The notes below the pieces were generated by a model. The model saw only the letters and a program-made list of their open reading frames with translations, made no database searches and had not been told where the DNA came from. A DNA stretch of 64,000 nucleotides, taken from the NCBI GenBank assembly GCA_950295325.1, contig OX485805.1, positions 49,376,758 to 49,440,757 on the forward strand, in the 5' to 3' direction. Source of the stretch: Polytrichum commune (taxonomy: Eukaryota; Streptophyta; Polytrichopsida; Polytrichales; Polytrichaceae). This document shows positions 2,668 to 62,705 of this stretch, piece by piece (the stretch's first letter is position 1; each line of letters starts with the position of its first letter). A program made the translations under genes and the position numbers.

Positions 2668-5600
2668 ATGGCGTCCAAGAAAGGAATTAGAATTCGGCTG
2701 TGCTTTGAGGAAGGCATGCTGAACGAGGCGCAGTTAGAGCAAGGGTTAAGCAAGTCGTGGTACCTTGTCAATGCTCAAATTCTCACTATCGGCCAGCTCT
2801 CATTCCGAATCACTGTCGACTTCCACCTCGCAAAGACTTGTCCCAATGGCGTCACCCTGGAGGTTAGAAAGCTTCTCACATTAGTTAGGTAGTCGAATTC
2901 CAGAAAACACATGTGAATGAAGTTAACAATGATCATTCAATCCTGAGTGAGGAGGGCTTGCTTTAGTTCCTGCAAATTGCTTTGGAAGTCGGGAAGTCAG
3001 CATTGCTGTTGTGATCATTATTACCTGGGGGACTGGAACATGAAGAATGGTTTAGGTCACGGTTAGGGTATCTCAATCTGAAGATGAGAGCTGCACTGAA
3101 GAGCTTAAAACAGTGACAACGAATTGCTGTTTACACTCTGTTTCGAGTTCAAAGACTGACTGAAATGGACGTGGTTTCAAGCAGTGTTGGACGGTATTGT
3201 CTTTTTTATATCACTACGGTAATTATAATGAGGATTTCACATGTTTTGATATCAGTGGGGTATGGGTATTTGAGGATATTTTTGTTTTCAATACCATTCA
3301 GATCTATATATACCATGCAAGAACCTTCATGCCGAGGCAAAATCGCCCTAGTATCAATATAATTTAGCATGGTATTCACCCAAATAATAACCTCGGTATA
3401 CAAAGATTTTCTCACCAAATATCAACATTTGACTGGTATCAAACTTTTGGTACCAGTCGGGTGTGTTCTTTGATACCATTATTGACGTTGATTATTGATA
3501 CCATGCATTCACCTAGATACCGGTCCAACATTGGTTTGAAGCTGCAAACTGCTACTCCGGTGTGCAATTTTATTACGCAGTAGAAAACATGCATTACATT
3601 TGACTGTTTATGAGAAGTCCAAGTATGATTCAGCAGAAATTTGGTGACAATGCAGATTGTGTTTTGAATTACTGTTGTTTTATTACATTTTCCCTTTAAC
3701 CTCATTCCTATAAGCCTTTGAATGAAAATTTTCAAGAGCTACTCTACCTAGAGTTAAACTAAGAGTTCTCTTTGATACCATGGCCCTGTATGTTCTGACC
3801 AATTTCCAAGGTCGTTGTGTAGAATTAGACATGCATGCAGCCTCTGTTGATGAGTACTGGTTGACATATTGTATTGATCTTTCAGATGTCTGGATTTGCT
3901 CTACCTCCAAGCCAACCTACCAGCCTCCTTCAAGATACTGAACTTGTCAGGTTTGTCTTATTCAATTTTTATTGCTTAATCATCACATTGCTTATGTGAT
4001 GGTTATGATTACAGGCGAATGTATGTAGATGTGGATGAATCACAGCTCAAAGATAAAGTTTCTTTGCTCCCTTTTGTTAATGTCCTCTTGACTAAGGCAC
4101 TCAGGGTTCTGTGACTTGGTCCTTTTTGTAGTGGTCTATGTTCTGCTTGAAATGATCTCAGTACCAGGCGAAGAATCATATGAGACCTTTCCTATGTGAT
4201 ACGTCATCCATCTGTGTCTCTTCATTGTTTGTCATATACTTAAACCCAGTTTTCCAATTCCTTAATGCAGTGTTAAGCGGAAAATACGGTTAACAGCAGA
4301 TGAAGTGACTGCTGTTTCTGCTGCTGGTACTATTGGGGCTACAAGTACGAAGAACACAGAATGTAGCGAAAAAGTCCTGGGTGCTCGCTATGGTGGGGAG
4401 GAGATCCGCCCAGTTGATGCATTTGAACTAGAGGCACAGGCTCGCCAAAGTGGAACTCTGGAGAAGGGAGCAGTTAGAAGTAGAGCAAAGGCCGTAGAAA
4501 TTGGACTTCAACTTTTGAGGACAAAAGAGACTGTGAGGAGGCGGAAGAGGACGTGCGATGGTGATGTTCCTATGTAAGTGCTGTGCACTTAGCACTTGTT
4601 TATAAATCTCTTGCATCCTGCATGAAGTCATCAGATTAAGATTCAAACTGAGTATTTCTGCTTGCTTTCTCCATGTTAAATGTGATCTAAATTACTCGAA
4701 CAACGCTGGTAGTAACAATGGCAGTAGCATTGCCGCAGACATGGTGAAGAGATTGCCACTGGGAAAGCAAATGACTTGGATACTGATGAGACGACAGATG
4801 CAGCTAAAGATGCAGCTGACAGAAGCGTTCATGGTGGTGATGTAAACAAGCTGGCTGATCTGTCTGAGAATCATGAAAAGGCAGTTCTAGTTGGTGAGGC
4901 TGAAAAGATTAGTACAGTGACAGGTGAGGAAGAGGAGGAAATAGAAAACTCAGACGATGACAAGGATGAACCAAGTGGTTTGGTGGAAAGTCCTGATGTT
5001 AACCAGTCCATTCTTTCTGTACCTCTGGCTTCGGAGGCCAAACCAGTTCAGGATCAGTAAGTCTTACTCTCCTACGTTTTGCAAATGCTTATTATGACTC
5101 ATTGGAGCTTGGTGATGTTCTATTTAAGCCCAGGACATTGTTGTGTTGTCGGTTTAGCAAAGCAACATGCCTCAGAACTGGTCATGCAATTTCTGCAGAG
5201 TACATCATAATTTTTCTGACTTAGTTTCTTGGGTGGTACTCAAATTTGCAGGTATTTGCATCAGCAGAACATTCTTGACAGCGAAAATGGAGAGAGTCCA
5301 GTTCGCAGGCAATTGAAGGAAAATCCTAGTGAGAGAAATGAAACTTGGTGTAAAAACCGTTTTGACCTATGGAGAAAGCAACAAGGTATAGATACAAGCA
5401 AAAGTCTTGAGGAGTTGCCCTATGAGGAGTTAGGCACCTTACTCAGCAAGTTCTTCCTCATGATATTCAAAGACAATGGTGAAAGATATCCTTCAGCCAG
5501 GTACTTTTTCTCTGGAACCTGATTTGTCTATAAGTTTTTGATGCTGCATCCTTGTAATATATGGAAAAGTATTTCAAGTTAATTTTGGCAGCAGCTTATA

Positions 5601-7237
5601 GTGCTTGATGCATCCATATTACAATAGAAATTATCGTCACAGAAAGTTGGGAAAGTGCTTCTGCAATATCCTTTCATTTATCCATCCTAATGCCTTGACA
5701 TTGCAATGACATTACAGCTTGATGAATTTGTATATGAGTTTCAACCGGATGATTGTTAAGGCCCAGCAAGAAAGAATCAAAAGGACAGGCATTGAGGAGG
5801 AATTATTCAAAATTCAAACACATCCATGTTTTCAGAAGGCTGGTCAATCTTGTCACAAGGCCATGGAATTGTCACGTTATTCTGGTGTTAACAAGAAACG
5901 CAAGAAGGCTGCTTGTATATCCTTGGAAGTGGAGAAACTTATTCTTTCGCACCCAGAGCATCAGGCTACCTTTCCCACCGGTGTGCAAAAGCGATTGGCC
6001 TACTACTTGTGGACTGTATTTCTCATTCGGGGAAATGAAGAGATGTGGAACTTGAAGTTTCATGACTTCAGTGTCCTTGTTGATGAAAAAGGATCCGAGT
6101 TTCTTCAGTAAGTCTTTCTTAGGTTCACTGTGTCTGCTCTTCATCTGTACAAAAGGCAACAATAAGGATCAACTGTGTTGTAGAGCAATGGCACTGATGA
6201 TTAACTAGGAGTATTTGTTTTCTCTGGAAGCGTTCTTTTCTGTTGACATCATAAGCGTGCATGTCCAGGTTGATACCCCTACTGTCCTTGATGATAATTC
6301 AACTTTGCCCTGCGGAAGGGATTTCGTAGTAAAAAGTTGAAAAATATTGATGGTCAACATGTGTGACATATAATTTTTTAAATCAAAGGCTTTTATTTCT
6401 CTCTGATAATTGTAATTACATCAACATCAAAATATTCTCATGTTTGTCCCTTTGTTGAGGACTCAAATCATGTTGTTCTTGAGGCTGGATGTCAATCTCT
6501 TTTACTCTTGCAGGAGAGGTCTTGTCTATCAATGTTCTCCTCTACTTAGGAGGGTTAGCGAGACTTGGAAAACTATGTTCCTGATGCTATTGCCATACTC
6601 TATGAGGGCAGGCTGGACATGCAAACCAGAGATGAATATTTTTACTCCTCATTTTGTAACTGCACATCTGGATGTTGAAAGATCTTCTAGAACAAAAGCA
6701 GCTACTTGTTATCTGACCTTATTTGGAAATGCATGTAGGTACAATCCAAGGGCCAAGAAAAGTTACAAGGTTATCATTACACAAGCCCAAGACAAAGTAT
6801 TGCAGCCACCTTCTGTATCATATGAAGCTGATGTTCTGCAGACATTCAAGGTTCTGTCACGGCATATGCCACCAAATTCTGGGGATGGTCACTTGTTCCT
6901 TTCGCCTATCAGGGATTCAAGGACTGTGGTAAGCTGTTTCTCATTGTTCTAGTGTATTTGGTAGTTGTAGAGGTCAAAATGTATGTTGCAGGCATTTTGT
7001 TGTCTTCCTCTGAGTCCATATAATAACATATATTTGATGGCAAGTGACTAGAAGGTGATCAAATTTCCTACTGGGAAATCAGCTGATGATGTCTATATTG
7101 ACCAGGTGTGGTTCAAACAAGGAATCAATGTTTCTAAAGGAATGATTCGTTTGTGGATGAACACCATGACTGAGGTGGTGGGTGCTGATGGGGAGTTCAC
7201 AAGCAAGAGTAGACGTGTTCTTGTCGCTGCCCAGTAG
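2668..7237 (+). CDS. Coilin N-terminal domain joined to a Crypton/DUF3504-like tyrosine-recombinase domain
   Basis: Eight exons give a 706-aa protein: 2668-2862, 3886-3950, 4271-4573, 4739-5056, 5252-5500, 5718-6107, 6514-6928 and 7052-7237; all junctions are GT-AG with matching phase. Residues 1-~100 look like the plant coilin self-association domain (IRIRLCFEE..., GLSKSW, CPNGV, GFALPP, DTELVSVKRK). Coilin scaffolds Cajal bodies in the nucleus. Residues ~100-290 are a basic patch (RRRKR) followed by an acidic, Glu/Asp-rich linker. From about residue 310 the sequence follows the Crypton-derived domain of ZMYM2/QRICH1: an N-terminal SAM-like part (WCKNRFDLW, ERYPSASLMNLY), a first-arginine motif (LIRGNEEM), a FLSP segment, VWFKQG, then FTSKSRR. 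The usual HxxR histidine appears to be Lys and the protein stops before a catalytic Tyr, so recombination activity is unlikely. Coilin's C-terminal Tudor-like domain is not seen. The start is the first ATG before the coilin motif. The main alternative is two genes mis-joined at 4573/4739. Confidence 0.65.
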
Positions 7238-9184
7238 CATCTTCATCACATCTGCAAAATTCACAGAAGCCCTGTCTAGGTAATTAGTACATGCATTTAA
7301 TTTGCAGGTTCAAGAGCCTGAACTTGAGAACCACTTCTGTCATAGTTGTAAATGTCGTCCCATGCTGCGACCACAATCAGCATGCAACTTGCTTCATCAT
7401 TGACCATTGCCAAATCATGTGTATAGAAACAGTTTTTGATGAACTGATCCTTGATGAATTTAAGTCATTGTTCATAGAAACATGTAGTTTTGATGTATCA
7501 TATAATGAGAACATATCTCTCTTTTTGAGTATTGGCCATCAGAAATTATGCAGAGTTGACTAACTATTATGAATGTTCTCAGCGTGTATAACTTTTCTCA
7601 ACCCTATTTGCAGGTAAGATTCTGTGATGAGTTTGCTAATTTTCTTGCAGTAACGTCTCTTGGTGGGATTTTTTGAGTCTCCATTGCTTGAGTGGAGAAA
7701 GGAAAGCCCCATTAGGGCTCCTGAAGTCACAATGACCTCTTCTGATCCAACTCTGGTTTTTACAATGCAGTTATGTTATCAAAGCTCATCAGTAATATTG
7801 TAATGCTTGGGGATTGGACGATAGTACTTAAGGCTGTGACATACGAATTTATACATTTTCAGGATAACAGTAACCAGTCGTAGATGTAAATTCAGGACTT
7901 TGAGTTTTTTGAGCCTTGAGACTATTCCTGGTGATAATTTGCTGGATGAGTCTTAAGTTGAACTTCTAGAGTTGAGAGAACATCTAATTAGAGGCTTAAT
8001 GTTTCTAGGGTGCAATACATCAAGTTAATTCTTGACTCATATTTTGATTCAAAATTCATTTCATGCTGAGTAGTATTTTGCGTTGGAGGAAAGATTCAAT
8101 TGGGGAGAGAGAGTGGGACATGTAGGGGATCAAAAGGTCCTTTAACCCTTAAATTCCTACTATATTCTCTACCTGGTTTTGGCTGATTTCCCACATTATC
8201 AGATGCAACAATTTGTGACCCTCGATCTAGGAATCACAGAGTACATACAATCGTATAGTTGTGTTGTTCATAAAGTCTAGACTTCACAAATAAACAAATT
8301 GGATTGTTGATGTGGAGGTGACATGTACATTATAGTGGAAAAGTGAATGAAGTGAAGACATGTTATTTTTTTTGAGAAGTCCGATAGGAGATGAGTTCCA
8401 GATGACATAAGAGTAGGCTCAATGGATAGAGGGCTCAAAAACCTAACACATACACTCTATAGGACTCACAAGTGACATGAGCTTTGTTTGTTGGGGGAGA
8501 TTGTATAATGCCACATACAAAAGAGAGAGGTCTTCAAGGGCTCCCTGTTTTCCTTAGTATTTCTGTGATGTTGAAATGGAGATCCCACTGGTAGATATTG
8601 GGATAATATTCTATCAATGATGCATGCCATTTTCCAGACTGTTCAATGCTCATCCAAGTGAGGTATGTCCAGATTTCTAAACTTGCTTCATGGAGAACGA
8701 TGGGATCCTTGCAATGGAAAACAATGACAATCCCCGTTTCAAAACACATGTTCTTGAAGTTTCAAATTGCACTGAATTCTAAAGCTGTTTTGTTGTATAA
8801 ATGCACCAATGAGATCACCGCATCCTATTCAAGTTGCATAAGATTTTAAAATGTTTTGTAATGCTTCTCACAGCGGGATGAACCAAGGAGTTTGGTCCAT
8901 CTTTGAGAGAATTTTCAGAGCCTAATGTTGATACCTACATTCAAATGAGATGAACAGTCTCAGATGTACGATGGTGCTACACAACAATCCATGACCATCT
9001 ATGCAACTGAGCATGAAAATCCAATGTTTATCATGGGTTTGTCATTGAGTTCACGATTAACCCTGTAACAATGGAAGAGCACACAGAGTTCAACTGACAT
9101 AAAGCACTGAATTATGTGCCAAATTCATGACCATCTGAATAGCTTCAACCAAAAATTGTTTGCTGGTCATGCAAAATCAACTAC
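7238..9184. other. Intergenic, nothing recognised
   Basis: AT-rich sequence without a convincing exon, RNA gene or bounded repeat. Short open frames are scattered and lack family signatures or codon structure. The first few hundred bases may be the 3' untranslated region of the preceding gene. Confidence 0.5.
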
Positions 9185-9400
9185 ACTAAACATGCTATTT
9201 AGTGTCACCAATTCTAATTGTCTTGCTCAATACTAACTGTAAACTGCGGTATAGTGTCACCAACACTAAATGTTATCCCAACATTATTTGTCATTCCTTT
9301 TAAATTTTTTGGGGGATTATAGATTTACAGTGTTGCGATTACTGTCATTTACCAAGTGATTTTTCATCCAAAGTTTAATCATCCATGTCAATATTTCATC
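9185..9400 (-). repeat. Dispersed repeat, inverted partner at 14745-14975
   Basis: The reverse complement aligns with 14745-14975 over about 200 bp, including shared stretches around GGAATGACAAATAATG and CATTTAGTGTTGGT. It is non-coding. Element ends are not defined. Confidence 0.6.
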
Positions 9401-9764
9401 GCAAGATGCTGACAAGAGAAGGTAGGCTTTTGGCCAATGGCTGAACTCATCCATCATCCATGACAATATTTGTAAACTATTCATAAGAAGTATCATCCCA
9501 AAAATTACCATAGTGACATCAAGTACCATATGAAACAAAAAAAACATTAATGAGGATCACAATAGAATGCCGTGTCCCATGTTTTTAACTCTTGATTAAA
9601 CCCTCACCATTAAGGGTTTTTTCCATCAAAGTAAAGGGCAACATAAAATGAAGGTTGCAAGATTCATTGTGGAATGTCCAGAAACAAAACTGTAAACACA
9701 AAGCCATAATAGCACCTCCATATAGTTGATTTTTTAAATTTAGGGACATGAGCTCCATGTCAAG

Positions 9765-10640
9765 TTAAAGTCATGATGTCATCTCCACAGCATCACATGA
9801 ACCACACATTTGACCTCAATAAACTTCATTAGCAATGTGGATATAGCCATTCAAATGAAATAAAATAAAAAATAGCACATATGTGGGTCACCACTACAGT
9901 TATAGTAGAAGCCTATGGATTTACATTAATTTGAATACATTTAAACAGCATTTGTGTGGGTTTGTAAAATGTAGGGTTTTAATATTACCTAAAATTTCAC
10001 ATTAATGTGACTTCCACTTTGAGGAATAATACACATTTAAGGTTTGTGGCTTTATTGTGGGCACTTTCAACTCTACATGACAATTCTACATATGATTTTC
10101 CATGGGAAATTTTCAAGGAATTTGTTTCATTTGATTAACAGTGAAGAATAACGTAAAATTGGCAGTTCAGATCTCAAAAATTGGAGTTGAGATGCAAAAG
10201 TTATAAGTTGTCAATTTGGCGATTTTCTTTCTCTTTGAGTCATTGATAACATAGGCCCTCCGAATTGTGTTAACTATTGAGCCTAGAATGGTGTCCATGA
10301 TTTGAACACACAACCCAAGCTCACCGTGACACGTGTCCTTTTGATAATGTTCTTAACTGCAACTCTTGCTATATACCACTCAAATATAGGTTTCTTAGTA
10401 CAAGTGACCACATAAGGCTCACATACCTTATTTGGACTCTACAAATTTTTTAAAATTTTTAAAATTTTTTTTGTAGTATTTGGGTTCTACTCTGTACTCA
10501 TAAAGTGACTTAAACGCTTAGTAATGTTGAGAGATTCATTTCTCCAAGCATCCGAATGTTAGCCGACTGAACAACCACTAAATGTCGAGTACTATTATGC
10601 TCGCATGTCATATGTGGGCTTTTTACATTATTTGGGCTCT
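9765..10640 (+). repeat. Dispersed ~0.85-kb repeat (copy 1)
   Basis: Colinear with 24505-25180 and, for its first part, with 36105-36240. Shared landmarks are CATCACATGAACCACACATT, TTCATTAGCAATGTGG and a 3' part rich in TTTGGGCTCTAC. No open frame is shared between copies, so this is a non-coding or non-autonomous element. Confidence 0.65.
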
Positions 10641-10647
10641 ACTCTAC

Positions 10648-10855
10648 CAATGAATGAAGGAAACCGACCACTGGTTACAAATGAACCGGTTGAAGTTCAA
10701 GACTCCAGGAAAGTTACCCATCATTTTAAAGGGGATTCAGGTAATATACCGCGAACTAATAAAAAAATACCGAAAGATGTCCACATGGATTTAGTTGGAC
10801 TTGTAAAAACACTAGGATCTTGACCAATTGTGCCCAAAAACCTCCCTAAACAATC
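10648..10855. mobile_element. hAT-type MITE with perfect 8-bp target duplication
   Basis: A 208-bp element flanked by the identical octamer TACTCTAC at 10640-10647 and 10856-10863. The ends resemble the family consensus CAGTGATCGGGGAGA, although this copy is diverged at both termini. The interior carries the family marker AACCGGTT-rich segments. An 8-bp target duplication with CA(G/A)TG termini fits the hAT superfamily. Non-coding. Confidence 0.7.
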
Positions 10856-11809
10856 TACTCTACACTATTTGGGCTCTGACATGAGTACGAGTGCCCGGGA
10901 CAACCCTATCTCAGTTAACACTTTTGGTGGTAAAACAAGTTTGGAGGGGATGGCAACTAAAGGTGAGATTCCATGTAGGCTGCTCGTCGACTAGATATTA
11001 AAAACTAGTGGGTCGGAGGTGTTCGCATGTAGTTAAGCACAAGCGATCATCCAACCACATTATGACGGTTCCCTAAAAGCTGGAAGATCTCTAACACAGC
11101 TCTCTAGACTTTCATGTGTCTGCAAAAAAATCTTCAACCTACAAGTGCCGGTCATGGAAGTATTGAAGACCGGTTTAGAAGGTAACCATTGACACTTGAG
11201 TGCGCTTGTGGCATCAAGTTCTGCCTTTTACCTTGAGTTATGTTTGTGATCTTCTGTTTGTGCATGCTCAAAGATCACGTGTCTTGTGTGCGAGAATGTT
11301 TGTGTAGGTTGCCAACAAGCATTGCTGTTCAAATGATTGCTTCTTTTTCCCCTCACCATGGTTCCAGATCTGGATCTGAATAGTTTGGAGGAGATAGATT
11401 TATCCAATCTTCACACAATCAGGGTTTATGCACAAACCAATTGGAGTCTTCACAAGTGCATCATTTTGCAAGATGCCAAGCGTCGAGATCATGACCACCG
11501 AGCTAATGGCGGGGCTTATGAGGCAATGCGGAAGGGAGTAGATAGATGGACCCTCATTGAAGACATGCTTTGGGAGGAAGGTGTGCACAGGAGCGCACAA
11601 TAATGCAAGGTTGAGTGGGAGAAACTGACTGCAGAATTCGATAAAGTCTTCGATTTTGAGACGAACGTACCATCGGGGCGATACACATACTGGCAGATGC
11701 CAAATACTGGACGAAGAGATGCCAAGATGCCTCCCAATTTCCACAGATCGCTCTATGATGCTCTCATGCAATGGTATGGTAGAATGCGAGCAGTGAATCC
11801 AGGGAATTG

Positions 11810-12128
11810 GATATTGGATTCCGGAATTCCAGAGTCTTATTCACCTGGTTTGTTTCTAGAACCCACTTCAATGTGGTTGCGTCTCTGTTTGAACACTTGT
11901 TGTTGCAATGTGCGGGGAGAACCGACCGCTAGTTACAGATGAACCGGTTGAGTTTGAGAAATAACCGGTTGAAGTTCAAGACTGCAGGAACATTAGCGAT
12001 CATTTTAGAGGAATCTATGGAATATGTTGATATTGGATTTCGGAATTCCAGAGTCTTCTTCACCTGGTTTGTTTCTAAAACCCACTTCAATTTGGTTGCG
12101 TTTCTATCTGAACACTTGTTGTTGCAAT
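11810..12128. repeat. 219-bp-period tandem duplication
   Basis: The block beginning GATATTGGATTCCGG at 11810 recurs at 12029 (GATATTGGATTTCGG) with about 90% identity. The repeated unit holds the end of the trihelix exon and the left half of a hAT MITE, so MITE insertion preceded the duplication. Confidence 0.75.
11906..12020. mobile_element. Truncated hAT-type MITE (left half)
   Basis: Starts CAATGTGCGGGGAGAACC and carries the AACCGGTT-rich interior, but stops where the 219-bp tandem duplication begins its second unit. Same family as 10648-10855. Confidence 0.6.
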
Positions 12129-16004: not shown

Positions 16005-17890
16005 AGTGCGATCAGTATTCAGTTGCTGCTCCGCCTCTCACTCCATCGTTCACCTGTGATGACTTCTTCTACGGAGTCCATCCCTGCCCTGTGTTACTCC
16101 TTGCTTACATCTGTAGGTTACAGTTCAGTTTGCCTGCATGGTGATGGTTTGCTTGACAAACTCTGTTAGAGGCCATCAATTGTACATGTGTTAGAGGAGG
16201 AGCAGCGTTAACGTTTTGCAAATTCGGTTCGTCGTGTTTATGAATTTATGAAGTCGATCTATATAGTGCGATCAGCATTCAGTTGCTGCTCCGCCTCTCA
16301 CTCCATCGTTCACCTGTTGTGGCTTGTTCTTCTACGGAGTCCATCCCTGCCCTGTGTTACTCCTTGCTTACATCTGTAGGTTACAGTTCAGTTTGCCTGC
16401 ATGGTAATGGTTTGCTTGACAAAGTCTGTTAGAGGCCATCAATTGTACATGTGTTAGAGGAGGAGCAGCGTTAACGTTTTGCAAATTCGGTTCGTCGTGT
16501 TTATGCAAAACTTGTTGGTGAAGCCAAACCTCGATTTCTCTGGATGGCTATGGCATGCTCGCCTTGGTAGTGCCAGTTTGACGACGGTTCTTGTCAATAG
16601 AAAGCTTGTATGCCGGATTTATGAAGTGAATATGTTTAGTGTGATCAGCATTCAGTTGCTGCTCCGCCTCTCGCTCCATCGTTCACCTGTTGTGGCTTGT
16701 TCTTCTACGGAGTCCATCCCTGCCATGTGTTACTCCTTGCTTACATCTGTAGGTTACAGTTCAGTTTGCCTGAATGGTGATGGTTTGCTTGACAAACTCT
16801 GTTAGAGGCCATCAATTGTACATGTGTTAGAGGAGGAGCAGCGTTAACGTTTTGCAAATTCGGTTCGTCGTGTTTATGAATTTATGAAGTCGATCTATAT
16901 AGTGCGATCAGCATTCAGTTGCTGCTCCGCCTCTCCCTCCATCGTTCACCTGTTGTGGCTTGTTCTTCTACGGAGTCCATCCCTGCCCTGTGTTACTCCT
17001 TGCTTACATCTGTAGGTTACAGTTCAGTTTGCCTGCATGGTAATGGTTTGCTTGACAAAGTCTGTTAGAGGCCATCAATTGTACATGTGTTAGAGGAGGA
17101 GCAGCGTTAACGTTTTGCAAATTCGGTTCGTCGTGTTTATGCAAAACTTGTTGGTGAAGCCAAACCTCGATTTCTCTGGATGGCTATGGCATGCTCGCCT
17201 TGGTAGTGCCAGTTTGACGACGGTTCTTGTCAATAGAAAGCTTGTATGCCGGATTTATGAAGTGAATATGTTTAGTGTGATCAGCATTCAGTTGCTGCTC
17301 CGCCTCTCGCTCCATCGTTCACCTGTTGTGGCTTGTTCTTCTACGGAGTCCATCCCTGCCATGTGTTACTCCTTGCTTACATCTGTAGGTTACAGTTCAG
17401 TTTGCCTGCATGGTGATGGTTTGCTTGACAAACTCTGTTAGAGGCCATCAATTGTACATGTGTTAGAGGAGGAGCAGCGTTAACGTTTTGCAAATTCGGT
17501 TCGTCGTGTTTATGAATTTATGAAGTCGATCTATATAGTGCGATCAGCATTCAGTTGCTGCTCCGCCTCTCGCTCCATCGTTCACCTGTTGTGGCTTGTT
17601 CTTCTACGGAGTCCATCCCTGCCATGTGTTACTCCTTGCTTACATCTGTAGGTTACAGTTCAGTTTGCCTGAATGATGATGGTTTGCTTGAGAAACTCTG
17701 TTAGAGGCCATCAATTGTGCATGTGTTAGAGGAGGAGCAGCGTTAACGTTTTGCAAATTCGGTTCGTCGTGTTTATGCAAAATTTGTTGGTGAAGCCAAA
17801 CCTCGATTTCTCTGGATGGCTATGGCATGCTCGCCTTGGTAGTGCCAGTTTGACGACGGTTCTTGTTAATAGAAAGCTTGGAAGCCGGAT
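16005..17890 (+). repeat. Higher-order tandem array, 636-bp period
   Basis: Short (~266 bp) and long (~370 bp) units alternate, giving a 636-bp higher-order period; the same landmark occurs at 16479, 17115 and 17751. All units share GATCAGCATTCAGTTGCTGC, TCTACGGAGTCCATCCCTGC and CAGCGTTAACGTTTTGCAAA. The long unit adds ~104 bp whose + frame gives LWHARLGSASL, reminiscent of the copia GAG-pre-integrase motif. Two successive long units encode 108-residue open frames that differ at one residue. Either a captured transposon piece amplified in tandem or a local satellite. I do not call a gene. Confidence 0.85.
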
Positions 17891-18344
17891 TTGTGCCTCC
17901 CCCCCGAAGAGACTACATAGCTGGTTTACATTTTTCACTTCTACGAAACAATTGGCCAAAAGTGTGGACACTGGACCTACAATCTCAATCCGACTCCGGA
18001 GGTAAACCGTTAGTTTGCACTTTGTGAGGAGTACCTCATCAAGGTCCACTGTCCACACTTTAGGTTGAAGAACCTCAATGCCCCTGATTTGGATGACATT
18101 TCCTTTTGAGCATATGGTGTATCATTTACCTTTTCTTTATATTCTGTGTGCATTCGGAGCTTCGGTACATAGCTAAACCTAACTTCTCTATTAATCGTGC
18201 GGTATACAAAATTGATGATGCATTTGTCGTGTTGTACAGAGTCTTCCACACTTCTTACTCGTCGACGAAGCATAAATCGGCTCGAGAACGTCAATCACGC
18301 ACGTTGCCTTGGCATCATTTGTTTGCAAAGACTTTCCGCGACCT

Positions 18345-21300
18345 AGAAACTAGCAGTAGAAACTAGAACTGATCGGCCGTGCTTCGACTCGTCAACTCAA
18401 GATGTCACGTCACTCGCACCGTCCCGCTGCCGACAACTTCGACGTGGCAGGATTGGGCCCCACCTCGAGGTTTCATCCATTTTCCAAATGCTCCAAGAGT
18501 TATCCTAAGCATTAAGAACCTCTAATTCCATCCTTGTTCATCCTTCACCATTGCTCAATCGGGTCTGACATTATAGCCTGCTCAATTTCGATTTCCTATG
18601 GTCTGAATTTATCGGCCATAATCTCTCATGCAGAAGTAGGGCAAATCAGCGGATGGGACAACGACAGGGCCCAGGGCGGCCTCCAACAATGCAGGTCCGA
18701 CCGCATCATCCGATATGCATGTGAGTTTTCGGATTTCCACTATGGTGAGCAGGAATGATCTAGAATTGAGAAGAGCAGAATCTGTTGGCCTGTGTTCTGG
18801 AAGTGGAAATTAATTTGAGTCGTCGTCAAAAATTATCAATCAGCTAGAGGCTTTCAGAACTTTGTTGGCAGAGTAGTATGGGAAACCCGAAAGATGTGTA
18901 TTAGGTTTTACTAGAACACAAGAGAGAAAGAGTTGTACAGAGGTACCGTCCACATGTATGTCAATCACGACGGTGTGCATATTGCCATGTCTTGAGGTAT
19001 ACGTGGATGCTGCTTTTTGCTAACGACCTATAACTTACAATTGATTTTGATTAGGAGGAGATACTTGGGCCGTTGAGTCGTTTGTGTCCTCAGCCTATGA
19101 AAGTTTGTGATCGAATTTCTAACTATATCTCTGTTTATTTAGTACTCGAACAGGGGAAAATTCAGAGCAGAGGCAAGAGCAGCGCTGGCTGCTGATGGAG
19201 ATGGGACTTAATTCCTTGGAGGTTCCTGGTGCAGAGGATGTTCCTTTGAATAAGTTGAGCAAACAAGACCGTGGTGAAGGTATCGCCATGATTTATACCA
19301 CTCTCTTGTATTTCGTGGGTGCAAACTGCTTCTATTCATTCCAAATCATTTTGTTGCGGCCATAAATACTCCAGGCTGTGATTGTTTGCTGCGATGTAGT
19401 ATTTCACAATAACTTTAAAAGCACCATGACATGAACAATGTCTTCTGGCATCTCAATATTCTGTGGTTAACTTGACTTCCCACAGATCACAGACGGATTG
19501 GAGATTTTTTACCTGATATTTTTAACCCGTCTTAACTGTTTCTACTTGTGAGATTATCACACCTTGGCATTTCTGTGCTTGGCAGGTGAACGGTCTGAGC
19601 AGAGAGATCAGACGGAATTGTCAATTCCAACTTCAAAGAATACCAGCAGGCGAGCTCAGGCATCTCCATCCTACCATCAACTACGTCGTGGTGAAACGGA
19701 CATTTCAAGTGATGAGGTAGGGATGACAACCTCGCTTGCTCTAAATCTTGTTGTTGGTATGTGTTGGTACGTGTTGGTTTGTGTGTGGAATTTGATACTT
19801 CTTTCAAGTTTTTCTCCTAATCTAGGGAACCCTTAATTATGATCAATGTTAGGTAGACATAATGATTGATACTGATTCATGGGTGAATGTTATATTAATG
19901 TGAAGGCTGATGCGGAAATGTGCACTGGAATAATATTTGCTCCACCGACTCATGAGCATGGGAGGAATGCGAGTAGCATGAGCCTTCCTCCACAGAACCC
20001 CTCATCAGTCCAAAGCAGAGGCAAGAATTGGACCAATCCGGAAGATATACTACTGATACAAGCCCATGGCGGCCCTTACCCCATGAAAAAGAAGAGTTGG
20101 ACGGATATTGCATCGAACATTCCCTGGAGAACCGGAGATCAATGTCGATTGCGGTGGGACACACTTCTTAGAAATTACAGAAAAGTTCACTTCAATCAAG
20201 GAAGAACCAAGGAAGAGTACTTTGAGGATTTGTTGTCTGGAAGAATTTCTTGTGGCCAAGGAAAATTGAGCCAAAGGGATCACCTCCAAGAACGAGCGGG
20301 GGAGAGCCGGAAGAAGAGGAAAACCGTAGAGAGCGATGTGGCTCAGGACTGTCATTGCAAACGAGAGAGATTATTTGAAGTCCATGAAACAAATTCAATC
20401 TTACAATTAGCACAGCGCTTCCTCAAAATACAGGAGAGAAATTTGCAGCTGAAGGAGTTAAAGTATGAAAGGAAAACTTCTGGGGCTGAGCCAGCAACAA
20501 GTCAAGGTAATCTCCCTCATCCACAATGGCCAATATACGCTTAATATACCAGAAGCACATTTCACACTTTGGACGAGTCTCTATTGTTGAGTTGCACCAT
20601 CTGATTGGACTATTTATGCTTTTGTTGTCTCAGATGATGGGTTAAGAGCTGCAGAGGTTGGCACTGCACATTGGTCAAGTGGACAAACGAATTCTGGGGT
20701 GCCTTTTCATCAGGAACCTGTTAGCCAACTAATTGGAGATTTCCGTTATCTGGGTTGTGAAGGTGTACCTCAGTCGAATTTCAATGGCATTTAAAAATTC
20801 TAATTTTGTTAAGTAGTTTTGTTTGTACATATTAAGGAACAGAAGGTATAAGGCAGTGCATAACCAGCTCTGCTTGCACAGTTTATGTTTTTGCACAGTT
20901 CAATGTCCCACTGAGCAGGAAAACCACATTTAGGTGGTTGAGAATCATTAGATTAGTTGGGGCACCCCATGCCACCGTATTCCCATCCTTTGTGGATCAG
21001 GAAGGGCTTTCCTTCTCGATTTTCTGTGGCATTGGGGTAGTGTACAGCTTGTTGGAATTCACAGCGCTTTAAAGCTGCATCAGGAGTAGAGGATGTAGCA
21101 AGCAGTCTGTGGACTTAGCTTTCTTTCAGCTTAGGAAGCCTGAGAAGGCTCACATGAATGGAACATATTATATCTGGTTGACAGCAGAGTACAATGAAAT
21201 TTAACATTCTTTCAAGCGTGGATTGTAGTATCTACTTTCGTTTAGCAAGTGATGTATCAAAATGGTGACTCTTTTGGTGCTTGTAAAGTTTCAATCGTCA

Positions 21301-22926: not shown

Positions 22927-24357
22927 CACCCTAACCTTGATAATGTCACACCCTCCGTTTCACCAAAAAGTGTGATATAAACAAGGTGTGACATACTTGA
23001 TAATGTCATATTTTGTGCATAATGTGATATTATCAAAAAATATGTAGAAAATCAAATTATAATTATAATTTTTTTTTAAATAACAAATACGAGACTTCAA
23101 TGTTTTTGAATGTAAAATCTAATTCAAAATTGTGAATAACAACAAGAGCACATCATAATGTGTCATTAAGATCAGGTAAAGACCTCTCACTAGAGACAAA
23201 GAAGCTTCTAATGTCACATTGTTTTGTTAATGTTAAATGTGCAACACCAATTCTAATGAGTTTGTCATGGATTTTTTCCATTTCTAACAACTCATGAGTG
23301 CTGAAAATCTGAGAACCTTGGCTAGCCATAAAATTCAAAACATCTTTAGCATATTTTTGTGCATCGCTTAGCTTCACTACTTTAGACTCATCATCACTGC
23401 TATCAACAATCAATGGGTCCACTTCCATGGAATCAAGAACCTGTTCGCCATCTTGCACTAATTGCACAAGCTCCTCAGTAGAAAATTCCACCTCAAAATC
23501 ATCTTCACCTTCCATGTTTATGTAACTCCAAAGGACAAAGCTTTTCTACAGGCTTGCCTTCAACATCCAAACCCAAATTTAATGCGGCGACGAGTCTACC
23601 CAATTCCAAAGTTGCTTCCTCCATTTTGGACTTCATACGTTCATCAAGATTGTTTATATCTGCATTCCACTCTGCATGCAATATGGCGGACTTTCTCCAA
23701 CAATTTCTAATGGTTTGATCATCTAATTCATGCCATGCCGCCACACACCATAGCATAGCTTGAAATACATCAACATTCAATTTCCCCAAATCTTCATTTG
23801 AGTTGTTATCAATTTGTTGCAAAGTCCAGGCAACAAGCTTGCGCTTATAACACATTTTGAATGTTGCAATCACTCCTTGATCCAAAGGCTGAACAACTGA
23901 AGTCACATTTGGTGGAAGGAACAAGATAGTGATATGGGAGAGTACAAAAGCATTAAATCCATCTATAACTTTCTTGACCTCACCATGAATATCATGGCTT
24001 CCTGCATTATCCATAATAATGCAAATCATTCTGTAATTACATAATCCATAATTACACAAGGCATCCCACTATGCCGAAAGCATTGCATGAGAGCTCATTC
24101 AATGACCCCCAATATGCTTTGCTTTAGCCCATGCTCACCCATGAACAATAATATCGAACCCATGCCCACCCATACAATCCATCCATACTTGATATTATCA
24201 CATTTACACTACGGATTTTGAAAAAAAATAGTGGCATTATCAAGGGTGATAGGGATAATAACGAGGGAGTTTTACACTATGAAAATCGGTTTCAAACTTT
24301 TAGGTGACAATATCAAGGTGTTCTATTAACAAGGGTGACATTATCAAGGTTAGGCTG
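22927..24357 (-). mobile_element. Pogo/Tigger-like DNA transposon remnant with both ends
   Basis: Terminal inverted repeats of about 27 bp share CCTAACCTTGATAATGTCAC, and a TA dinucleotide flanks each side (22925-22926, 24358-24359), as expected for Tc1/mariner-pogo elements. TTGATAATGTCA-type repeats recur subterminally. The interior carries only the C-terminal part of a DDE transposase, so it is 1431 bp and non-autonomous. It lies 14 bp from a hAT MITE. Confidence 0.8.
23153..24059 (-). pseudogene. Pogo/Tigger (CENP-B-like) DDE transposase fragment
   Basis: Read leftward, the first part (24059-23505) carries the DDE_1 signature MDNAGSH ... ITILFLPPNVTSVVQPLDQG followed by FK.CYKRKL, which holds the second catalytic Asp and the typical pogo C-terminal region. 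The second part (23515-23153), overlapping in a different frame, encodes an acidic tail (VEFSTEELVQLV...). The N-terminal DNA-binding domains and first catalytic Asp are missing, and a frameshift separates the two parts. Not functional. Confidence 0.8.
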
Positions 24358-28044: not shown

Positions 28045-31000
28045 GGAGCTAGAATCTAGCAGTAGAAACTAGAACAGATCGCCCGTCCTTTGTCTATCCA
28101 ACTCAAGATGTCATGTCCCTTGCGCCCTTCCGCTGCGGACGACTTCGACAGAGCAGCAGGACTGACCTCCACCTCGAGGTTTCATCCATTCCTTATATAC
28201 TCCAAAGATTTCGAGATTAATTTCCTTTAATTCATCCTTGTTAGTTCATCCTTTACCATTACTCAAGGTGGAGTTTGTTATAGCCTGTCTTAATTTCCAT
28301 CTTCTCTGCTCTGAAATTATTGGCAATAATCTTTCATGCAGAAAAGGGACATCTCAGCTGAGTAGGCAACGTCGGGGCCGGGGGGATCGTCCAACACGCA
28401 GGTGAGTTTTCAGATCTCCACTGTAATGAACAGGAATGACGTAAAATTGAGGATAACAGAATCATGAATATGTGTCAGCAGACAGACGATCAACATTTGC
28501 TGCGAATTAGAAGTTTCAGTGGTCGTCAAGAATTATGAATGTAAGAGGCCTTCGGAATCTTGCTGTCAAAAAAGTATAGAGAACTCTAATGAATCATGTA
28601 TATTTGGTTTGCTATAACACAAGAGTTAGAGTGTCTACGGTGGTACCTTCCTCATGAATGTCGGTCACGACAGTGTGCATATTTCCAGGTCTTGCAGCAT
28701 ATGTGGCTGCTGCTAACACGCTATAATTTATTGTGGATGACATACTTGGGCGGTTAGGTCGCTTGTCTCCTCAGCATATGAAAGATTGTATTCAAAACTC
28801 TAACTGATTCTCTGTTTCTTTTTAACTAGATCAAGAGCAAATACAGAAAGTTCAGAGCGGGGGCAAGAGCAGGGTCGGCTAATGATGGAATTTCTGGAGA
28901 GATTTAAATTATTGCAGGTTCCTGGCGCTCTAGGTGCTCCTTCGAATAGATCGAGTAATCAAGACCATCTTGAAGGTATTGTCATAATTTACTCCACTTC
29001 CTCGTTTTCAACGGTGCAAAATCTTCCGTTTCATTACAAATCAAATTCTTGCGGCTATAGAAACCCCCAGGCTTTGAATATTTCCTGAGATGTAGGATTT
29101 CACAATAAATTGAAAAAAACCTTGTGATCAATGTCTTTTGGCATCTAATACTCCGTGGTTAAGTTGACTTTCGAAAACTCACAGACGAATCGAGATGTTT
29201 ACCAGTTCTCTTGTGGTTACTATGTCCACCATTTCAATATGGTGGTTGTTTCCGCGTGTGACTTGGAAGATTGACGAGATACAATTATTGAGATTCTCAC
29301 ACCTTGGCATTTCTGCGCTTGGCAGGTGAACGGGCTGAGGATAGAGATCAGACGGAATTGGCAATTCTAACGCAAAAGAATACCGGCAGGCGAGCTCAGG
29401 CATCTCCATCCTACCATCGACTACGTCGTGGTGAAAAGGACATTTCAAGTGATGAGGTAGGGATGACAACCTCGCTTGCTCTAAATTTTGTTGTCGGTAT
29501 GTGTTGGTTTGGGTGTGTGAAATCTGATACTTCTTTCAAGTTTTTCTCCTAATCTAGGGAACCCTTAATTATGGTCAATGTTAGGTAGACAAAATATTTG
29601 CTTACCGATTTACAGGTGAATGATATATTAATGTGAAGGACGATGCGGAAATGTGCACTGGAAGGATATTTGCTCCACCGACTCATGAGCATGGGAGGAA
29701 TGAGAGTAGCATGAACCGTCCTCCACAGAACCCCTCATCAGTCCAAAGCAGAGGCAAGAATTGGACCAATCCGGAAGATAAACTCCTGATACAAGCCCAT
29801 GGCGCCCCATACCGCAGGAAAAAGAAGAGTTGGACGGATATTGCATCGAGCATTCCCGGGAGAACCGGAGATCAATGTCGGTTGCGGTGGGACACACTTC
29901 TTAGAATTTACAGAAAAGAGCACCTCAATCAACGGAGAAGCGAAGAAGAGTACTTTCAGGATTTGCTGTCTGGAAGAATTTCTTGTGGCCAAGGAGAATC
30001 GAGCCAAAGGGATCACCTCCAAGAACGAGCGGGGGAGAGCTGCAAGAAGAGGAAAACCCTAGAGAGTGATGTGGCTCAGGACTGTCATTGCAAACGAGAG
30101 AGATTGATTGAAGTCCATGAAATAACTTCAATCTTACAATCAGTACAGCGCTTCCTCGAAATACAGGAGAGAATTTTGAAGCTTAAGAGCTAAAGTATGA
30201 AAGGAAAACCTCTGGGGCTGAGCAGGCAACAAGTCAAGGTAATTTCCCTCATCCATAATGGCCAATAACGGCTTAATATACCAGAAGCACATTTCACACT
30301 TTGGGTGAGTCTCTATTGTTGAGTTGCACTATCTGATTGGACTATTTATGCTTTTGTTGTCTCAGGTGATGGGTTAAGAGCTGCAGGGGTTGGCACTACA
30401 CATTGTTTAAGTGGACAAACGAATTTTGTGGTGCCTCTTCATCAGGACCCTGTTGGGCAACTATTTCCAGTTTTCCCCTTTGTGGGTTGTGAAGGTGTAC
30501 CCCAGTCAAATTTCGATGGCATTTAAAAATTCTAATTTTGTTGAAAAATAGTTTTGTTTGTACATGTCAAGGAACAGAAGGTATAAGACAGTGCATAACC
30601 AGCTTTGCTTGCACAGTTTATGTTTTTGCACAGTTCAATGTCCCACTGAGCAGAAAAACCACATTTAGGTGGTTGAGAATCATTAGATTAGTTGGGGCAC
30701 CCCATTCCACCGTATTACCATCCTTTGTGGATCAGGAAGGGCTTCCTTGCTCGATTTTCTCTGGCATTGGGGTAGTGTACAGCTTGTTGGAATTCACAAC
30801 GCTTGAAAGCTGCATCAGGAGTAGAGGATGTAGCAAGCAGTCTGTGGACTTAGCTTTCTTTCAGCTTAGGAAGCCTGAGAAGGCTCACATGAATGTAACA
30901 TATTATAGCTGGTTGACAGCAGAGTACAATGAAATTTAACATTCTTCAAGCGTGGATTGTAGTATCTACTTTCTTTTAGTAGGTGATGTATCAAAATGGT

Positions 31001-39186: not shown

Positions 39187-42100
39187 CTACTGTGGTGATT
39201 CATCATTGTAGTCTGCCTCTGTATCCTCCATTTGCATAGCAAGCTGCACCTCGTTGCTAGAAAGCTCCCTGGAACTTGATAAAACAAGTGGCATTGCTAC
39301 GGTATCATCAGCGACATGATGTGCCATCAATCCCTGAGTTACAACATCGTCGCATAAGCTTAGGCAGTGTAGATCTGGTCTTCCTTCAGCCATGGAAGTC
39401 ACTCTCACACTTCGTGCCTCTTTGCGTAGAACTACCTTCCATCCAGGATGTGCCACATCGTCAACAAAGAAAACCTGTTGAGCATGAAGAGGAAACGCAA
39501 ACGAATCTGATGAGTATGGAATGGTGCGGTCAATGTTCACGAGAGTGAAACCGTACTCATCTCTTTTCATAGTTGCCCGTGGCCCAATCCACGTGGCGCG
39601 GACCCACTTACAATACAGTAGGAGTATTTCAAACTTCCCATAGTCAGCCCCAATAATCTCTTCGACCCACCCCACGTACTCCACGTTCGCAAGCCTATGA
39701 TTCTTATCCTTTCTGCTGGAACGGCAAGATTGTGAGAATGTTGCAGCTACTCCGCTGTCGCACGTTGTCAAGTGGCCCTCTGCTCCTCGCACATGTATAT
39801 GGTTCCCGTATGCATACATGCTGCGATACGATTTTGCCTCGCATGAAGGTGGTAGGACAAGGCCAAGAATATCTTCATGGACCTCTGTGCCTGCTGCCAC
39901 ATCCCGTTGCACCGCGATAGGAAACCACTCAGAAAACTGCTCATTCCTTGCGATTGCTGGATACTCTGCTCTTCTGCCCCGTGATCGACGACGTATCTCT
40001 GCACGCATTCTGTGCCGCGTTTCCATCTCCAAGTAGTGACGTCTGATTGAAAGCCACAGTGGATGGAAATTAGTTACATAACAAAAACAGCCGGCAGATA
40101 AATGTAATCGTCATCAACATCTAATTCCCTAGTCATGTGTTGCAATATGATGACTGAAATTAGTACGCAGTAGACCTTTGTTGACTATAGAGTCACATTG
40201 TCCCTTCTAGACAGAGTGCATGACTAAAACATGTGATGCTTATTCTCTGTTAGTCATGTGTTGCAATATGATGACTAGAATTAGTACGCAATAGACCTTT
40301 GTTGACTATAGAGTCACATTGTCCCTTCTAGACAGAGTGCATGACTAAAACATGTGATGCTTACTCTCTGTATGACTGTAGAGGCTCAGCATTCGTGAGA
40401 ACAAACTCGTGAATCCGTGCCCTCAGCTCTGATGTCAAGAGTCGATATCGACCTGTACCCTCCGCGACCTCACTCTTGGCCCCTACTTCCTCCTCATCGT
40501 CCCAAGTCCTCCTGCGTGTTAGCTCACAGTCTTGCATGTACTCTGTGCAAAATCCTAACGCCTCCTCTATTGTGTACCCCCTCGCCATGGATCCCTCAGG
40601 TTTTGCTCGTTGCCTAACATAGCCCTTCAGTCTCTTCAGGTACCGCTCAATAGGATACATCCATCGGGTGTGTACGGGACCACATATATCCAACTGCTGC
40701 ACCAGGTGAATGGGGAGGTGCGACATGACATCAAAGAATGAAGGTGGAAAAACCATCTCTAGCATGCATAGAGTCTCAGCTGTGTACTCCAATAACTGTT
40801 CTATGGACGAGGGATCTACGGATTTTGCGCACAATCGTACAAACACCCGGCTAAGCCGCATTATTGCCACCCGCGTATCCCTGTCTAAGAGAGTGCGCAA
40901 ACACAAGGGGAGCAATTGTTGCATCAAGACATGGTAGTCATGAGATTTCAGCCCCTTCAAGTCCCCATCCGACGCAATGCATTTTGCAAGTTGGCTAGCG
41001 TAGTTCGTAGGAGTCTTCAAATTGCGGATAATGTCTATGAATTTTGCCTTCTCTTCTTTCGATAGTACATATGGAGCTGTTGGAAGTACGACAGACCCAG
41101 GTTTCCTTCCTCGAAGAGGGTGCAGATATTGTCGAATGTTGGCCTCTTTTAAGTCTAGCCGGGCCTTCAAAGTGTCACAGACTCCCCAAATTGTTTTCAT
41201 CACGTTCTCGCAGATGTTTTTTTCGCAGTGCATGGGATCCAAAAGATGTCTAATGAGGAGGTCCTGCCAGAAATCCCAGCAAAGCATTCCAGCGTCAGAT
41301 TTACTCACTTTCGACAAAGACTCTTAAGCATTCATTGAAAAGATATAGGTCCATATTTTGGATCATCCACACTGGCAGTCATGGATTTATGAAATTGCAC
41401 TATTCACAGTCACTCTTCTTACCAACCAGGTTACTAGAGTCAGTCAACAATTATAACTGAACGTACTGGAACCAGTGATTGATTTCAGAAATTGCACTAT
41501 TCACATTCAACCTGCTAACCGTGTTTGTTACTAGAGTCAGTCAACAATTCTAACTGTCAGTTACTGGAACCAGTGATTGATTCCTGAAATTGCACTATGA
41601 ACATTCAACCAAATAAGCGTGTTTGTGTCTAGATTCAGTCAACAATTCTAAATGTCAGTTACTGGAACCAGTGATTGATTTCAGAAATTGCACTATTCAC
41701 ATTCAACCAGATAAGCGTGTTTGTTACTAGATTCAGTCAACAATTCTAAATGTCAGTTACTGGAACCTGTGAATGCGCTAAGTACCTGCCAATACAGAAG
41801 CTTATAAAGAGCTGAGAGCTGCTTCACTCCGGTGCGCTGAATGGGGTCGCCTTCTCCTCCACCTCTTCTTCCCTGTGACTCTTGCAGGAAGGACAATCTT
41901 TCTTGTGCATAGCCCTTGATGTCGCATCCTGTTAGAATTGGAGGGGGAGGTCGGTACTCCTGTTGACCATCAAATGAATGCTTGAGCCTACGATATGGAT
42001 GCCATCTACTGAGATACCGGCGGTGACCTAAATATACATTCTTTCCGAGAGCCTTTGACCGCCGAGTTGTAACATCTGGCCCACACTCGGTACACGCTCT

Positions 42101-59000: not shown

Positions 59001-59829
59001 CATTTTGGATATTTGTGGTTTTGGTGGTGCACCAAGGATGACCGTCGCACATCTTGTCCATGCCGTCCATTGAGCGACCATACGTACTTGGAGCTTTGAA
59101 TGCCACAGGAGGCAAGAGAAACAAAACATCACCATTAAAAGAAAATGGTAAGTACTTGACTTCACGAACATCTATACTGTCAAAATCAATGGATGCAAGA
59201 TCGGACTTTGATCTTTTTCTTGACTTTGTTAGCTTCAAGGCATCAACCATAGTCAACCCTGTAGATGAAGGTGAAGGGTGTAGTGGAGGACGTTGAGAAG
59301 GTGAGATTTGGGGAACCACCTTGTTGTACATAAGACCGCAAGGGGATTTGGCTACATGTATAGGAAGTTGGGAAGGAGTAGAATGAACACTTCTAAATGG
59401 AAATGGCGATGTGTTTGAAAGATCAACAGATGCACAAATGTCATCTTCTGAATCTGATAGCACAAATACACTATCATCAAGGGTTTCCACCTTAACATGT
59501 GCGATAGAGGGAATTTGAACTGTGGATGTACCGGATTCGTTTGTCAAAATGACAGTTGAAGCTTGCATCTGAGACTCAGAAAGTCCTATCACCCTAAATG
59601 AACCAGGTCCTAAGATCCACATAAAACCAACATCAGTTCTATTTTGTGGAACCAAAATCGTTTCATACACCTCTCCATCTGCAGAGTACATCTCATGCTC
59701 TAAATACATGGTTCCTATCTGGAGGTTGAATCTCAAACTAAGTAAATCCTCTGAAACACTCACATGACCATCATCTTGGAGTGGCAAGATGAAGGGAACA
59801 AAAGATCCATGAGCTCTAATGGTAGCCAT
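56027..59829 (-). CDS. MULE transposase with SWIM zinc finger
   Basis: Two exons, 59829-57694 and 57394-56027, join in phase (intron 57693-57395) into 1167 aa. Residues ~250-370 contain a Cys/His-rich DNA-binding segment (CAGHLQCHNDYCDY ... CKVCRS ... MSRACIHLGVHDHPV). The MULE DDE region follows: CCDMQSED (first Asp), GFMADSAQANW (second Asp), then the C/H motif RTCLFHW and WWLSSGAASEEG. The C-terminal exon ends in a SWIM finger: CTCPDF...WVYCKH. Such proteins move Mutator-like elements by cut-and-paste and act in the nucleus. The start is the first ATG of a long open exon. The frame is intact, so it could be functional. The intron carries three palindromic repeats and a second, unused copy of the downstream exon start. 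Confidence 0.85.
57452..57539. repeat. Three TTTGGGTCGNNCGACCCAAA palindromes in the MULE intron
   Basis: Spacer dinucleotides are TT, TT and AA; the first has one mismatch in the right half. The same motif forms the array at 62012-62420. Confidence 0.85.
57541..57610 (-). repeat. Duplicate of the MULE second-exon start inside the intron
   Basis: About 70 bp matching 57333-57402, including the splice acceptor and the start of exon 2 (DMTIEER). Splicing to this copy would read into the palindromes and hit a stop, so the downstream copy is the usable one. Confidence 0.75.
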
Positions 59830-62486: not shown

Positions 62487-62705
62487 CCCTTGTAGTTTTG
62501 GGGTGAGCGGCCACCCTTATCGTACAATATTTAAAGGTGCAAATGGTAGTGTCTAGAATAATTTTTGTTATTCTTCCCTGTGTTCGTGGTATTCTGTTGT
62601 TATGGTTTTTGCTATTGCTGTTGTTTTTGTAATGTTATTGCTAATGTGTTTCTACTGGTTTTGAAATATTTATGAAACTTATTTCATTTGTTTTAGGACC
62701 AATCA

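Follow-up and report, generated by a model that had tools for sequence, protein, structure and literature searches.

A stretch of 64,000 nucleotides from Polytrichum commune (C3:49376758-49440757, hereafter the window) contains a gene in which a coilin N-terminal domain (NTD) is joined in frame, by way of an acidic linker, to a domain derived from a tyrosine recombinase (YR). The interpretation favoured here, to which a probability of about 0.6 is given, is that this is a host-transposase fusion gene, that a second fusion elsewhere in the same genome (L022, on contig C1) probably arose separately, and that the window protein does not cut DNA and would tether coilin-type assemblies to it. That the two domains are joined in frame in a plant gene had been claimed in a preliminary description of this sequence, and the gene model supports the claim. 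The genome searched for relatives is 408 Mb in 64 contigs.

Exon structure of the window gene

The gene has eight GT-AG exons (Table 1) with consistent phases and a single open frame of 613 codons without a stop, running from the ATG at 2668, which has an in-frame TAA immediately 5' of it, to the TAG at 7237. The GC content is 41-51% in the exons and 35-40% in the introns. The openness of each exon was judged by randomising stretches of the region with its dinucleotide frequencies in 2000 trials and reading them in the frame of the exon. For exon 4, and again for exon 6, just one of the 2000 trials gave an open stretch; for the short exons openness is uninformative, the open fraction being 0.32 (exon 2), 0.03 (exon 7), and 0.07 (exon 8). 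The acidic linker reported in the preliminary description is present, in exon 4.

The GT-AG exons, phases, and open frame of the eight-exon model first proposed are retained, and only the start of exon 7, originally set at 6514, has been moved. With that start, residues 507-579 of the resulting protein match no relative. The relatives carry an intron in place of these residues, with the same phase-2 junction in an element copy (L025), in the second fusion (L022), and in an intron-rich recombinase-derived gene (L041). In L025 the junction reads TTGAA/GTAGGT ... CAG/GTACGATGAG, and the corresponding acceptor in the window is ATGTAG/GTACAA, which gives a start at 6739. Because the relatives have an intron with this junction here, exon 7 is taken to be 6739-6928 and the protein to be of 613 residues.

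Table 1. Features of the fusion gene and of its neighbourhood, in window positions
Feature	Position	Strand	Evidence or remark
Exon 1: coilin NTD, ATG start	2668..2862	+	49-57% identity to two other coilin-N loci, by stretch aligned
Exon 2: coilin NTD (MSGFALPP...), 65 nt, same as intact coilin	3886..3950	+	
Exon 3: remainder of coilin NTD, then coilin-type linker; 303 nt, phase-2 end, as intact-coilin exon 3; Met-free	4271..4573	+	
Intron 3: fusion point, coilin side / recombinase side; GT-AG; position and phase match intact-coilin intron 3	4574..4738	+	
Exon 4: acidic linker, 28% Asp and Glu, Met-free	4739..5056	+	
Exon 5: core-binding part of recombinase domain	5252..5500	+	
Exon 6: rest of core-binding part, then first half of catalytic domain, including first catalytic Arg (LIRGNEEM)	5718..6107	+	
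Exon 7, corrected (earlier start 6514)	6739..6928	+	homologous phase-2 intron in L025, L022, L041
Exon 8: region of the second Arg (SKSRR), followed by stop; lacks the His (GH) and Tyr (RY) motifs of relatives	7106..7237	+	
CACTA-type element pieces (Transposase_21, DUF4218, DUF4216)	39190-43595	minus	Pfam
DDE_1 piece	23508-24068		Pfam
Myb/SANT-like open reading frames	19876-20541 and 29624-30190		Pfam

The coilin part and the intact coilin gene

The coilin NTD reported in the preliminary description is borne out by Pfam, which finds Coilin_N (PF15862) in the window protein with an E value of 3.7e-7 and 30.6 bits, a little short of the cut-off, 32.9. The same domain is above cut-off in L022 (E 1.9e-11, 44.5 bits) and in an intact coilin on C1 (E 4.2e-10, 40.1 bits). 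These three are the coilin-N loci found when the whole genome is searched at the protein level with either fusion or with exons 1-3 of the intact coilin. Searches of this kind score only the best candidates, and the single further match to the coilin part in them is at chance level (E 2.8). A search of the genome with the PF15862 profile, exon by exon, returned one chance match. The locus L001, with an E of 0.34 in that search, was considered as a second coilin and rejected, no coilin-like frame being seen there. The coilin part of the window gene is 57% identical to each of the two other coilin-N loci and is thus equidistant from them.

Plant coilin is described as having an NTD, a disordered middle, and a Tudor-like C-terminal domain (PMC3539977), and it is the NTD that the window gene shares. 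With a limit of E 1, Tudor_Coilin (PF23086) matches the genome only in two exon pieces, at C1:13249071-13249503 (E 6.5e-8 and 8.8e-6), downstream of the coilin-N exons of the intact gene at C1:13242.4 kb, and the peptide joined from these two exons matches Tudor_Coilin with an E of 1e-23. A separate full-length coilin, the presence of which had been suggested as a check, therefore exists with its Tudor domain, and the window gene is a coilin paralog rather than, as had been thought, a coilin whose C-terminus was replaced. The window protein differs from coilin in having a recombinase-derived domain and no Tudor-like domain, PF23086 being found neither in this protein by the Pfam scan nor at either fusion by the genome search.

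Exons 2 and 3 of the window gene match those of the intact coilin in length and phase, and exon 3 also resembles its counterpart in sequence (0.005 of 2000 shuffles were as good). The fact that exon 3 shares length, end phase, and resemblance with exon 3 of the intact coilin places the fusion point in coilin intron 3.

The recombinase part and its relatives

Searched with the fusion protein, the genome gave 60 matching pieces with E values of 10 or less, a number that takes in the exons of the fusion itself. The 20 regions that were fetched are the second fusion, the intact coilin, and 18 recombinase-like copies, which are the intron-rich gene L041, a broken copy (L031), and members of two lineages, A (L024-L027, L032, and the fragments L033 and L034; L028/L029/L035; L030/L037) and B (L036, L038, L039, L040). 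The main A copies are 97-99% identical to one another, copies within B 98-99%, and the fragments 95-98%. Beyond the point at which the window gene stops, 14 of the 18 regions read on with a KxxR...H...Y stretch, 13 of the 18 with GH. This stretch is NKSGR...TGHRDEKTLERY-like in A and NKTAR...TGHNSREGYIRY-like in B, and its Lys-x-x-Arg, His, and Tyr are those of tyrosine recombinases. In L028 there is RH in place of GH, and several copies have stops or shifts.

The window YR is 51-52% identical to the elements L025 and L029 over its first half and 42-49% over its second. The core-binding part and the first Arg (LIRGNEEM) are still present in the window protein, which ends SKSRRVLVAAQ, without the catalytic His and Tyr, so that this recombinase should be catalytically dead and should not cut DNA. 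The lost C-terminal part has no credible match in window 6901-12000 (next best E 0.85), and the idea that its exons lie downstream of the gene was accordingly rejected.

Because relatives in the same genome keep the catalytic motifs, exons 5-8 can be identified as a tyrosine recombinase domain of the broad Crypton/DUF3504 kind. This upholds the recombinase identity proposed at first, and the DUF3504 label in part, its Pfam scores being sub-threshold. DUF3504 (PF12012) was not found in the window protein by Pfam up to E 5, and the QRICH1 domain (PF25561) reached only 0.11. The relatives are also under the cut-offs (Phage_integrase 0.0033 in L025; DUF3504 0.025 in L036; DUF3504 0.017 and QRICH1 0.05 in L041). 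Searching the PDB with the window recombinase part alone gave a best match of E 0.17, to a designed protein. A five-row YR profile had as its best PDB match the integrase 3nkh (E 0.024), aligned over the KxxR...H...Y stretch; its two further matches are to unrelated proteins (E 0.09 and 0.55). When viral contigs were scanned with the alignment of recombinases, 35 pattern matches came up, none of which was confirmed.

By its pattern of changes over codon positions, the window gene is under protein-level constraint. Taking the YR sites at which L025 and L029 agree, changes specific to the window gene are found at 43/174, 41/191, and 62/110 sites of codon positions 1, 2, and 3 (Fisher p 1.5e-10). 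The corresponding figures are 9/59, 8/74, and 11/33 for its coilin part (p 0.009) and 30/99, 22/102, and 37/63 for the first half of the L022 recombinase (p 3e-6), and in both genes the change per site is highest at third codon positions, as in protein-coding genes under selection. The window gene thus combines the features by which a domesticated recombinase is recognised, having no near-identical copies, a YR domain short of catalytic residues, and a protein under constraint.

The second fusion and the number of captures

L022 (C1:35972600-35982500, minus strand) has six exons and encodes 649 amino acids comprising a coilin NTD, an acidic linker, and a recombinase. Its protein ends ...GTTKFDYSVDTTRLDFS, a few residues from where the window protein ends. 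A YR tree was built from nine rows and 307 columns, leaving out L028 (partial), L031 (broken), the fragments L033, L034, L035, and L037, and the near-copies L024, L027, L032, L039, and L040. The window YR groups with lineage A in this tree (100/100); L022 groups with L041 (87/90) and with B (100/100). Constraining the window gene and L022 to a single clade is rejected (p-AU 5.6e-9), as is a clade of these two with L041 (p-AU 1.1e-7). A grouping of L022 with B is not rejected (p-AU 0.136), and L022 may be nearer to either L041 or B. By this tree the fused YRs of the window gene and L022 are of different lineages.

The coilin sides differ as well. Exon 3 ends in phase 2 in the window gene and the intact coilin and in phase 1 in L022, and exon 3 of L022 has no detectable resemblance to that of the intact coilin (0.17 of shuffles were as good). 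Since the common YR clade is rejected, the exon-3 phases differ, and L022 exon 3 is unlike coilin exon 3, two separate recombinase captures appear likeliest. The linkers of the window gene, L022, L041, and L029, compared pairwise, show no resemblance beyond that of shuffles, L022 and L041 standing at 0.055.

Proposed origin and role

The window gene would have arisen when an additional copy of coilin exons 1-3 became linked, in coilin intron 3, to a captured YR gene related to lineage A, and the captured recombinase, having lost its catalytic His and Tyr, would no longer cut DNA. In L022 a second coilin copy would have been joined, probably independently, to a YR of another lineage, that of L041 and lineage B, with the same catalytic end lost. 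The coilin domain may bring the window protein to coilin assemblies (Cajal bodies), while the core-binding and half-catalytic region may bind DNA or multimerise. Together these would tether coilin-type assemblies to particular DNA, perhaps the ends of resident YR elements. In plants, factors of RNA-directed DNA methylation concentrate in coilin assemblies.

The coilin NTD is reported to self-associate (PMC9556525), and in Arabidopsis to have a part in the RNA-induced multimerisation of coilin (PMC3539977). Tyrosine recombinases bind DNA with their N-terminal domain, and such a domain has already been put to use by plants in the ALOG proteins (PMC3537659). Transposon silencing is one possible use of the window protein, because AGO4-mediated methylation of viral DNA in Nicotiana depends on Cajal bodies (PMC7567605). 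A more specific proposal is that coilin paralogs twice independently captured a dead recombinase, from two lineages of Crypton-like elements still resident in the genome, and that each fusion recognises the element ends of its own lineage and pulls those elements into coilin assemblies as a lineage-matched transposon repressor tethered to Cajal bodies; taken as a whole, this is distinctly unlikely. The gene is a construct provided by nature with which to ask whether the assembly of coilin can be steered to DNA, and it bears on the reason for the link between Cajal bodies and DNA silencing in plants.

Several observations weigh against the tethering interpretation. The window fusion is a gene model read from the anatomy of the genomic sequence. 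Its Coilin_N score falls just under the Pfam cut-off, and the DUF3504 and QRICH1 scores are under theirs in every protein scanned. Of the two profiles that had been suggested for searching, PF15862 is seen in the window protein, and PF12012 gave a single match in the genome searched exon by exon (E 0.95), which is not at the window gene. The constraint figures cover the coilin and YR parts, exon 4 being without a relative for comparison, and the truncated YR domain may have lost its folding or its binding to DNA. With respect to two captures, L022 is a long branch in the tree. Three residues beyond the YP motif, moreover, the window gene, L022, and L041 share an intron in the same position and phase. 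It is absent from the element copies read through at that point, and this is easier to account for by a shared history than by two captures from the present elements. The findings could be reconciled if the ancestral recombinase was rich in introns and the elements later lost introns. A clade of the A elements that leaves out the window gene is not rejected (p-AU 0.074), and this would allow a single intron loss in A.

The shared intron would be expected if there had been a single ancestral coilin-recombinase fusion, later duplicated, in which the YR part then diverged or was exchanged. That both fusion proteins end at almost the same place, and that the window coilin part is as close to L022 as to the intact coilin, would fit such a history. 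However, the YR tree rejects a clade of the window gene with L022, and one of these two with L041, and the exon-3 ends differ, and a single origin is considered unlikely.

It also seems unlikely that the fusion protein acts without binding DNA, its coilin NTD modulating or competing with the intact coilin and the recombinase remnant being only a folded tail. Constructs of the NTD are reported to enter Cajal bodies, and single NTD mutants to disperse them (PMC9556525), and neither fusion shows a Tudor domain or a catalytic end. An inert tail would, however, hardly need the constraint seen in the window YR, where 62/110 third positions have changed against 84/365 first and second positions.

Two adjacent genes might have been misjoined, one for a short coilin-N protein with its end near 4577, the other a recombinase gene that starts before 5252. 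If exon 3 is read beyond its end, a stop does follow directly (ATG TAA at the donor), and in L022 the open frame of exon 4 reaches back into the intron as far as an ATG, which makes a separate start conceivable there. In the window gene, on the other hand, exons 3 and 4 have no Met codon and the next after codon 66 is codon 364, which would mean that a separate recombinase gene had no in-frame start before late exon 5, with exon 4 open without a start (1/2000 randomised). The same domain order recurs at L022, the spliced model of which has no Met between codons 73 and 306. A misjoining is therefore quite improbable. A decaying pseudogene formed by transposon insertion into a coilin duplicate, to which the C-terminus, short relative to the elements, and the transposon-rich neighbourhood might point, is very improbable given 613 codons without stop or frameshift at about 50% identity to the nearest element and the constraint by codon position.

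Comparison with known fusions

In host-transposase fusions of the KRABINER type the transposase part is of the DDE type. These likewise combine a host domain with a transposon-derived, probably DNA-binding domain (PMC12062965), whereas the window gene has a tyrosine recombinase and, in place of KRAB or F-box, a nuclear-body scaffold domain. The animal DUF3504 genes ZMYM2/3/4, QRICH1, KCTD1, and KIAA1958 are described as domesticated Crypton recombinases (PMC3212892), and are likewise captured YRs without catalytic residues fused to host sequence. The window gene differs from these in being in a plant, in its coilin partner and its YR lineage, and in its sub-threshold matches to Pfam DUF3504 and QRICH1. 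ALOG proteins are likewise land-plant proteins, derived from the core-binding part of a tyrosine recombinase (PMC3537659), but there is no ALOG domain among the Pfam matches of the window protein, which keeps the core-binding part with half of the catalytic domain and has coilin fused to it.

No coilin-recombinase fusion is described among the matches listed in the open-licence PubMed Central literature, in line with the earlier statement that the architecture was undescribed, and the main text of a paper on transposable element domains joined to host domains is without the words coilin, Crypton, and DUF3504 (PMC12062965). Within this literature, the joining of a nuclear-body scaffold domain to a transposon-derived, probably DNA-binding domain is, as far as shown, apparently undescribed. 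In this genome such a fusion appears to have arisen on two occasions.

Resident Crypton-like elements

Lineage B elements run from GTACTAG to TTTAACG, a unit of about 2.9-3.2 kb, in 4/4 copies. Outside these ends the 60-base flanks are unrelated between copies (10-24/60 identical), and the ends, inspected by eye over 40 bases each in one copy, are without terminal inverted repeats. A 6-base direct repeat, ATCAAC, flanks L038, one of the four B copies, and none is evident by eye in L036, L039, and L040; the statement that B makes no target-site duplication was dropped for this reason. The A copies likewise start GTACTAG, and only their left end is sharp. A sharp right end and a length of 3.6 kb were dropped for this lineage, since pairs of A copies share more than 3.6 kb.

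In the joined proteins of L025 and L036, the two element proteins scanned, the recombinase is the sole mobile-element domain found, and on this basis the A and B elements look like Cryptons. The Pfam scan of these two proteins showed no reverse transcriptase domain. They have, as Cryptons would, complete YR motifs and dispersed, near-identical copies (97-99%) at unrelated sites. L036, L038-L040, L024-L027, and L032 have apparently been mobile recently. Near-identical Crypton-like elements are thereby open to study in a plant genome. L026 and L027 (C7:30494500 and C7:30526700) lie in stretches of 9.9 kb about 32 kb apart that are 99.96% identical, including a lineage-A element, and are a recent segmental duplication.

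A review of land plants reports DIRS only from green algae and, in the text covered, never mentions Crypton by name (PMC9033089). In three plant papers Crypton figures, in the parts covered, just as an order in the general classification (PMC11630846, PMC5846285, PMC10794571). A table in a 2015 survey has Crypton among the superfamilies in all groups studied, including land plants (PMC4438587), and a claim to the first land-plant Cryptons was dropped because of it.

The recombinase-derived gene L041 (C7:14415500-14425400, minus strand) is intron-rich, with 504 amino acids modelled, GP where the elements have GH, and no coilin domain detected. About 430 bases downstream of it are BTB/POZ and BACK frames (BTB E 5.7e-10), which may be part of a fusion or belong to a neighbour. 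A recombinase-BTB fusion, if true, would parallel vertebrate KCTD1.

Surroundings of the gene and the genome

A Pfam scan of ten long frames shows the neighbourhood of the fusion gene in the window to be transposon-rich (Table 1). There is a tandem triplication at window 16458-18002, with a period of about 636 bases and the same frame at 16458, 17094, and 17730. Two long frames of 742 and 455 codons, on the minus strand at 56030-59835, have no Pfam match at E up to 0.01. At 62697-63425 there is a weak match, under cut-off, to NTR2, a splicing-complex-related protein (E 0.0037).

Nearly the whole genome is held in seven chromosome-sized contigs, six of which sum to about 353 Mb, with C5 of at least 52.7 Mb. 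A chromosome number of seven is in keeping with hair-cap mosses. It is that of a green plant, as 58 pieces match the chlorophyll a/b-binding family genome-wide at E up to 0.001. At C5:1751760-1846160, 14 frames of the chlorophyll a/b-binding family, all with the same Pfam score, are clustered within 95 kb and occupy both strands.

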